Assembly: GCA_949298985.1 (NCBI GenBank)
Contig: CASFYV010000021.1
Location: 186,001 to 250,000, forward strand
DNA length: 64,000 nucleotides
Reading direction: 5' to 3'
Origin: an uncultured bacterium
GTDB taxonomy: Bacteria > Cyanobacteriota > Vampirovibrionia > Gastranaerophilales > Gastranaerophilaceae
Under the pieces are notes generated by a model, which ran no database searches, had not been told where the DNA came from, and was given only the letters and a program-made list of their open reading frames with translations. Positions 4,968 through 35,598 of this stretch are shown here, piece after piece (position 1 is the stretch's first letter; the number at the start of each line of letters is the position of its first letter). The position numbers were made by a program, and so were the translations under genes.

Positions 4968-5000
4968 AGTGAAGCGTAAGACGTGAAGAGTGAGGAGTTC
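4968..5000 (+). repeat. Heptanucleotide tandem repeat, purine-rich on plus strand
   Basis: Degenerate 7-bp units (AGTGAAG CGTAAGA CGTGAAG AGTGAGG) run just after the dehydrogenase stop codon. The array resembles cyanobacterial STRR repeats. A second array of opposite polarity lies at 5059-5090. Confidence 0.65.
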
Positions 5001-5058
5001 ATTGAAAAGGTAATAAGTTTAGGAGTTGAGTAGTTTAGAAGAATTTAATAATAAAAAT

Positions 5059-5090
5059 CTATTCACTATTCACAAGTCACAATTCACTAG
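5059..5090 (-). repeat. Heptanucleotide tandem repeat, purine-rich on minus strand
   Basis: Units read CTATTCA CTATTCA CAAGTCA CAATTCA CTAG with a strict 7-bp period. It lies 20 bp beyond the stop codon of the minus-strand gene ending at 5111 and forms an inverted pair with 4968-5000. Confidence 0.7.
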
Positions 5091-26694: not shown

Positions 26695-26702
26695 AAGACA
26701 AA

Positions 26703-26730
26703 CTAGTAATTAGTGACTAGTGAATAGAAT
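26703..26730 (+). repeat. Heptanucleotide tandem repeat
   Basis: CTAGTAA TTAGTGA CTAGTGA ATAGAAT, 7-bp period, right after the SEC-C stop codon. An inverted partner AATTCACTAG lies at 26876-26885, so the pair encloses the structured segment 26740-26905. Confidence 0.6.
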
Positions 26731-33170: not shown

Positions 33171-34838
<1,668 letters not shown>

Positions 34839-34853
34839 TTATTTAAATATACT

Positions 34854-34888
34854 AAGTAAAGAGTGAAGCGTGAGGAGTAAAGAGTTCT
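34854..34888 (+). repeat. Heptanucleotide tandem repeat between groEL and the four-helix-bundle gene
   Basis: AAGTAAA GAGTGAA GCGTGAG GAGTAAA GAGTTCT, strict 7-bp period, purine-rich on the plus strand. It forms an inverted pair with 35252-35280 around the inserted gene. Confidence 0.7.
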
Positions 34889-34897
34889 TTTTAAAAT

Positions 34898-35245
34898 TTA
34901 GTTTTGCTTCTTTAAATGACGTTTTAATCCAGATAATAATTTCTCTATCTTATCAATATCAGCCAATAGCTCCTGACAACTACAAAAACCTAATTTTTCT
35001 GAAATAATTAATTGCGTTTCAAGCTCTGCAATTGAACCATAAGCCATATCTATAAATCTAAAAGTATCTTTATCGGAATATCTTGCACATCCCTCTGCGA
35101 TATTAGATGGTACAGAAATAGCGGCTCTTCTCATCTGATTAACGATGCCAAACATTTCTTCTTTAGGGAATTGTTCAGTAAGTTTATATATTTTTGTAAC
35201 TAAATTAACTGATTCTTTCCAAGCATTTAAATCTTTATGATTCAT
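34898..35245 (-). CDS. Four-helix bundle protein (S23/IVP family) inserted between groES and groEL
   Basis: A 115-aa protein when started at ATG 35245 (MNHKDLNAWK), which has GGGAG 5-9 bp upstream; a GTG seven codons earlier lies in the repeat array. It matches the four-helix bundle family known from intervening sequences in 23S rRNA genes: LNAWKESVNLVTKIYKLTEQ, then QMRRAAISVPSNIAEGCAR, TFRFIDMAYGSIAELETQLI and a last helix ending in LKRHLKK. The fold is related to Avd of diversity-generating retroelements. Function is unknown. It is flanked by inverted heptad arrays, and the one on its upstream side supplies its ribosome-binding site, so it looks like a mobile cassette that split groESL. 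Confidence 0.9.
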   Translation of the reverse strand: MNHKDLNAWKESVNLVTKIYKLTEQFPKEEMFGIVNQMRRAAISVPSNIAEGCARYSDKDTFRFIDMAYGSIAELETQLIISEKLGFCSCQELLADIDKIEKLLSGLKRHLKKQN

Positions 35246-35251
35246 AATGCT

Positions 35252-35280
35252 CCCTTCACTCTTCACGCATCACTCTTAAT
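35252..35280 (-). repeat. Heptanucleotide tandem repeat between groES and the four-helix-bundle gene
   Basis: On the minus strand AAGAGTGATGCGTGAAGAGT continues as GAAGGGAG, with 7-bp spacing of the GTGA/GTGAA units. It supplies the ribosome-binding site of the four-helix-bundle gene. Confidence 0.65.
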
Positions 35281-35310: not shown

Positions 35311-35598
35311 CTATTCGACTACTGCTAAAGCATCTTTGATAGAAAGAATTTTGTATTCTACTCCATCCATTTTTACATCTGTTCCTGCATATTTAGCATA
35401 AAGAATGATATCACCTACATTAACTCCCATAGGTTCTTTTTCACCTTTATCATTAGTTTTTCCTTCGCCTACTGCAACAACTTCACCTTTTTGAGGTTTT
35501 TCTTTTGCACTATCTGGTATAAAAATTCCACCTGAAGTTTGTTCTGTATCTTCAATAACTTTGATAACAATTCTGTCTTGTAATGGTTTTAATGCCAT
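35311..35598 (-). CDS. groES: Co-chaperonin GroES
   Basis: A 95-aa GroES: PLQDRIVIKVIEDTEQTSGG, the mobile-loop motif GIFIPDSAKEKPQKGEVVAV, and DIILYAKYAGTDVKMDG near the end. It caps the GroEL ring. AGGAGG lies just before the ATG at 35598. The upstream 115 bp were checked for a CIRCE element (inverted GAGTGCTAA) and none was found, so heat control, if any, is not by HrcA at this site. Confidence 0.97.
   Translation of the reverse strand: MALKPLQDRIVIKVIEDTEQTSGGIFIPDSAKEKPQKGEVVAVGEGKTNDKGEKEPMGVNVGDIILYAKYAGTDVKMDGVEYKILSIKDALAVVE

Follow-up and report, generated by a model that had tools for sequence, protein, structure and literature searches.

A probable hairpin element carrying a four-helix-bundle gene at the groES-groEL junction

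Results

Anatomy of the groES-groEL locus

The window, i.e. the whole stretch of 64,000 nucleotides that was analysed, has on its minus strand the ORF order groES, four-helix-bundle (4HB) gene, groEL, which confirms the preliminary description of a 4HB gene splitting the pair. The host gene upstream of the element is groES (35311..35598, minus strand; 95-aa ORF), and the one downstream is groEL (33171..34820, minus strand; 549-aa ORF), whose Shine-Dalgarno (SD) sequence GAAAGG (34830..34835, minus strand, read from the sequence) lies outside the element. The 4HB gene, of the 23S-IVP or S23p type (34898..35245, minus strand), encodes 115 aa and is bordered by two period-7 arrays found by TRF, AGTAAAG at 34855-34885 and CTTCACT at 35254-35277. 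The latter array, which forms the 5' hairpin arm (minus strand), reads AGTGAAG on the strand of the 4HB gene and pairs with the 34855-34885 region, where the 3' array and arm (plus strand, AGTRAAG) is inverted relative to it (inverted-repeat pair I1/I12). Among inverted repeats in this region, the top-scoring one joins 34859-34895 to 35241-35277 (37 nt, 76%). The ATG of the 4HB gene is preceded 4 nt upstream by AAGGGAG (35250..35256, minus strand), read from the sequence as its SD, in which the upstream array ends and which overlaps the last heptad. The opposite orientation of the heptad arrays on the two sides of the gene, and the placement of its ribosome-binding site in one of them, are therefore as first described.

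In the computed fold of the spacer RNA, pairing of the arms brings the two ends together (-113.5 kcal/mol, z -3.77). Across loci, computed stem formation is only moderately above control, and end-to-end pairing of at least 15 bp is also seen in 29/80 control segments, so that folding alone is weak evidence. A nearly identical element is present in genome G059 (L066, G059:C21:8378-8626), where a 1-nt deletion breaks the 4HB frame; this may be true decay or an assembly error, which are indistinguishable here. The window copy is one of a pair, shared by its own genome (G000) and G059, and may reflect simple inheritance of the element.

The 4HB protein matches PF05635 (1.7e-35, 121.9 bits, cut-off 33.8) and TIGR02436 (1.8e-35, 121.4 bits, cut-off 24), and a relative from Xanthomonas has a solved structure (PDB 2gsc). 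With the bAvd profile it scores 20.5 bits, below the curated cut-off of 40, and a search of phage records gave no match. Among relatives the 4HB genes have dN/dS values of 0.05-0.21, as expected of sequences kept by purifying selection.

Arms and array types in the family

Each of the 45 distinct 4HB loci in the window's family has an arm complementarity of at least 33, while the maximum under a Markov null is 25, which excludes chance mirroring. The median score with an element's own partner is 49, compared with 18 for swapped arms and 16 for the Markov null. Copies lacking flanking repeats, which the preliminary description had named as evidence against a cassette, were thus not encountered among these 45 loci. 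Array types vary by element (AGTGAAG, AGTGAAT, CGTGAAT, GTGACTAA, TTAATAAG, GTGATCAA and more), both arms of any one element share the type, and the 4HB clade tracks it with 6 changes. Strict one-to-one covariation of the arms was not found inside a clade; arms match at the level of array type, and in a few cases an arm taken from another element of that type gives better pairing than the native one. The elements at the groESL site form nearly one clade, which spans genera.

Filled, empty and swapped sites

The comparison of the site covered 49 genomes of the genus, with 50 groES-groEL loci among them, groES being present in 49/58 genus genomes. The 4HB gene is found in 22/50 loci (one copy truncated, one frameshifted), always in sense to groESL, and is absent from 28/50, most of which have a spacer of 14-45 nt. 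The empty site that the preliminary description proposed to look for in relatives therefore exists, and the gene is not common to all of them at this position. The mirrored arms are present; mapping of a target duplication was limited by the empty spacers, which are short and AT-rich, and none was found. Some of the spacers that do not carry the 4HB gene (L067, L068, L072, L081 and L095) hold other short hairpin-like inserts, for example arrays of the GGCAATAG type in L081 and of the AAAATTGA type in L095, so that the groESL junction collects small insertions.

On the groES+groEL tree, occupancy has changed at least 8 times, 5 of the changes being forced by well-supported branches. Across 190 pairs of filled groESL loci, spacer identity does not correlate with flank identity (Spearman rho 0.08), and the identity of the element therefore ignores that of the host. 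Thus G000 and its close relative G211 are 95.4% identical in the flanks and 65.6% in the spacers, and the G000 4HB protein is 76-77% identical to those of distant hosts versus 62% to that of G211. The reverse pattern is seen in L107/L108, with a spacer identity of 99.6% and a flank identity of 94.9%, where the tract of high identity stops near the element on both sides. Together, the empty sites, the differing elements in close relatives and the elements more alike than their flanks support the mobile cassette proposed in the preliminary description. One ancient insertion, followed by repeated losses and fast array turnover, would agree with the near-single clade of groESL-site proteins, and many losses are plausible in themselves, but purely vertical inheritance is very hard to reconcile with the missing correlation between spacer and flank identity and with spacers that, noncoding arms included, are in several pairs more conserved than the flanking coding DNA. 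We regard it as the least probable of the readings considered.

A second site, between rimP and nusA, was compared in another genus of the same family. The 570-nt spacer of G080 and G017 is 98.4% identical, whereas rimP and nusA are 82.9% and 89.3% identical, respectively, and the conserved tract runs from ~13 nt ahead of the rimP stop to ~35 nt inside nusA. The closest host to G080, G144, has a different element at this junction, and the spacer of G125 is short and lacks a 4HB gene. In G105 the start of a G080-type array is kept just before the genome's own, different array; similarly, at the groESL site of G162 an AGTGAAG relic precedes a GTGACTAA element. Such relics beside new arrays point to successive occupants. 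L079 has lost all but the outer arms of an element resembling that of L074, and from the sequence comparison this locus is a product of decay by internal deletion.

The same observations bear on the route of transfer between genomes. Homologous recombination through the groES/groEL or rimP/nusA flanks could by itself swap filled and empty spacers, with the arms kept as RNA structure. Allelic exchange of this kind would fit the site-faithfulness of the elements and the near-single clade at groESL, the mosaic L105/L106, in which identity continues from the spacer into groEL, and the reach of the G080/G017 tract into nusA. It is at odds with the ending of the L107/L108 and G080/G017 tracts near the element on both sides and with the relics of earlier occupants that adjoin new elements, and it leaves unexplained how such a large variety of junctions came to be colonised across many phyla. 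As an account of how elements pass from genome to genome it must be taken seriously, with a chance somewhat short of even; it concerns the route of spread alone and overlaps to that extent with the reading as a junction-faithful selfish element that we favour below.

Spread across phyla and junctions

A profile scan of species genomes yielded a broad set of 80 PF05635 loci from many phyla; the scan profile was built from four proteins, a profile of nine diverse proteins being too loose. Arm complementarity exceeds the 99th percentile of the same-locus control in 60/80 of these loci, about a quarter having no arms above the control threshold. Under a strict test, which requires a tandem array of at least 80% on either side of the gene and one period for both, two-sided arrays are present in 26/47, 33/46 and 31/80 loci, together 90/173, as against 0/514 controls, and several of the loci that fail keep an array on one side. 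Inverted arrays bordering 4HB genes, first described from the window, hence extend across phyla. Period 7 is dominant in the broad and cyanobacterial sets; in the window's family, period 8 is as frequent as period 7. The same design is found at PF05635 loci on cyanobacterial plasmids and chromosomes and in Gemmatirosa, and L153, from the phylum genome set, has the same 4HB flanks as the Geminocystis plasmid locus L116. In the broad set the gene is in sense to both neighbours in 43 loci versus antisense to both in 8. Occupied junctions include carA|carB, pgk|pyk, ruvA|ruvB, pglZ|brxL and cas6|cas4, and, in antisense, nrdB|nrdA.

It may be asked whether hairpin and 4HB protein have been domesticated to tune the groES:groEL ratio. 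The position between the cistrons, the purifying selection and the computed stem would all suit a regulator; the patchy occupancy, the swapping of elements and the recurrence of the same element type in many unrelated operons do not, and we find such a role improbable.

Some individual loci deserve mention. On a Pseudanabaena plasmid a 4HB element (L115) separates cas6 from cas4, and in Thiohalocapsa another (L206) separates pglZ from brxL in a BREX system; elements of this sort in defence operons may create false signals of gene association. In L198 and L193 the mirroring of the arms reaches past the heptads, and L198 has inverted GGGCGGGACACCCGCACCCGAT on both sides of the gene; one of its arms may have been copied from the other. 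Genome G317, from the Geminocystis family of cyanobacteria (L123, L142-L149), has 12 PF05635 genes, of which ~8 are near-identical truncated copies sharing the flank TAACTGACGTTACGCA, and L123 terminates in inverted TGCGTAACATCAGTTA. These copies give the impression of a MITE that has picked up a 4HB element and multiplied it.

Gene-less heptad arrays in host genomes

The window's genome, G000 (1.79 Mb), has one PF05635 gene above the cut-off, the window copy, which ruled out a comparison of several 4HB genes within this genome. It contains many dispersed heptad arrays without a 4HB gene, several of which are short gene-less hairpins in operon spacers, and inverted heptad pairs lie before tsf (L058) and before accC (L051), both genes named by eye, and at L043. 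Within the window, 4968-5089 holds an inverted gene-less heptad pair ~60 nt apart and 26702-26727 a lone heptad array. The repeat AGTGAWKAGTGAWK occurs 32 times forward versus 6 times reverse in G000, and is roughly balanced in most relatives; contig orientation together with the repeat-rich contig C13 is perhaps responsible for the skew.

At least 10 AGTGAWK double heptads are present in 12/12 genomes with an AGTGA-type groESL element, in 5/37 others and in 2/27 empty ones. The Fisher test for 12/12 versus 5/37 gives 6.7e-8, with 4 phylogenetically independent contrasts only, and a weaker trend in the same direction is seen for the octad and CGTGAWT types (p 0.009 and 0.006). Given this small number of independent contrasts, the association is only suggestive of dispersed gene-less arrays accompanying the gene-bearing element in trans.

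In principle, a resident reverse transcriptase (RT) could copy the RNA of the hairpin in trans, assisted by the 4HB protein in a role like that of Avd. PF05635 does resemble the Avd of diversity-generating retroelements (DGR) (PMC10053308), the bAvd match found here being weak, and G000 has one RT-protease fusion. An RT match was, on the other hand, obtained in just 8 of the 35 genus genomes searched and in a minority of the filled ones, for which reason a resident RT is rejected as a necessary driver for most filled genomes; no RT lies at the groESL locus, and the sole RT of G000 is on another contig. A retroelement acting in trans is accordingly considered unlikely, to much the same degree as domestication. 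That RT (L113, G000:C26:265387-266022; 559 aa) looks fused to a trypsin-like protease and is perhaps a defence RT.

Discussion

Our data are best accounted for by a selfish, IVS-like hairpin element that is faithful to particular operon junctions, a reading that we consider probable. As the comparison of loci shows, such an element consists of two mirrored arrays of ~7-nt repeats flanking one small 4HB (S23-type) ORF and lies in the spacer of adjacent, usually co-directional genes, mostly in sense. By computation, the two arms could pair as a stem in the operon transcript, with the ORF looped out between them. By analogy with the IVSs of 23S rRNA, host RNase III may cut this stem and part the two cistrons, and since each would have its own SD, the insertion would cost little. 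Translation of the 4HB protein would start from the SD at the 5' arm, and comparison shows the protein sequence to be under selection. The compared loci likewise show horizontal spread into the same junction of other genomes, with elements replacing each other, and to decay by internal deletion into gene-less hairpins. Finally, we infer that the 4HB protein may act on its own heptad hairpin and so aid persistence or spread. It is tempting to speculate further that PF05635 proteins drive a very widespread, transposase-free mobile element, a minimal combination of one 4HB gene with a heptad-array hairpin of its own that would home to operon junctions and, in trans, spread gene-less hairpins; this wider proposal is tentative, and we hold it to be somewhat doubtful.

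The family of 23S IVS proteins is an orphan one that occurs all over the bacteria, heptanucleotide repeats, known in cyanobacteria as STRR, are abundant and of unexplained origin, and the mobility of IVSs has been debated since their discovery. The gene-in-hairpin design across many phyla points to a widespread mobile element that was recognised before mainly in ribosomal RNA genes, and it joins three loose ends, namely this protein family, the heptanucleotide repeats and small insertions that split housekeeping operons. The natural pairs of filled and empty sites make IVS mobility testable, and a mobile element may turn out to be sustained by a protein in which neither a nuclease nor a recombinase domain is known. 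PF05635 genes beside CRISPR, BREX or other operons may be passengers and not components. If the wider proposal of a PF05635-driven element is true, the origin of many heptanucleotide repeats would be explained and the 23S rRNA IVS would be one special case.

Several known systems can be compared with the present element. The heptanucleotide repeats GGGAATC of Xanthomonas (PMC4692102) and TAACTGA of Beggiatoaceae (PMC4679880) are, in the available text of these reports, described with inverted pairs, close together in the case of GGGAATC, and with a patchy spread, and no mechanism is given there. The arms of the present element are similarly intergenic tandem 7-mers, with period 7 in both. They differ from the repeats so described in bordering a PF05635 gene, the available text of these open-access PMC papers (PMC4692102, PMC4679880) naming no gene associated with the repeats, and in particular no 4HB gene. 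The Avd of DGRs is a related four-helix-bundle family (PMC10053308); unlike in a DGR, neither an RT nor TR/VR repeats are present at the groESL locus, and the bAvd score is below the cut-off. IVP is listed among proteins associated with CRISPR adaptation modules in a survey from 2023 (PMC10910872), and this association could plausibly have arisen by hitchhiking in cas operons, of which L115 is an instance. With RAYT/REPIN systems the element has in common a gene between inverted small repeats that are also dispersed without the gene in the genome, and it differs in having a four-helix bundle instead of a Y1 transposase inside the repeats, and tandem 7-mers, not REP palindromes. By analogy, the arrays in trans are suggestive of RAYT/REPIN logic without a RAYT.

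The closest likeness is to the S23p-type IVSs of 23S rRNA in Coxiella burnetii and Leptospira (PMC4990558), which are ~430-500 nt long with complementary termini that form a stem, carry one PF05635-family ORF in the loop, and are patchy and horizontally acquired. In C. burnetii the IVS has a 28-bp stem and an S23p ORF, thought not to be expressed, with heptamers (GACAGAT) beside it (PMC4990558), a further similarity. Unlike that IVS, the present element has heptad arrays as both arms and an ORF with an SD and under purifying selection, and unlike 23S IVSs in general it sits in an mRNA operon spacer, between groES and groEL. A location in rRNA is ruled out for every PF05635 locus fetched, none of which has a 16S or 23S rRNA motif nearby. 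The kinship with a passenger of 23S rRNA insertions put forward in the preliminary description hence holds for the architecture, a stem with an S23-protein ORF, and not for the location. The element, being outside rRNA, is not classed as a 23S IVS, and by analogy it would work like one.
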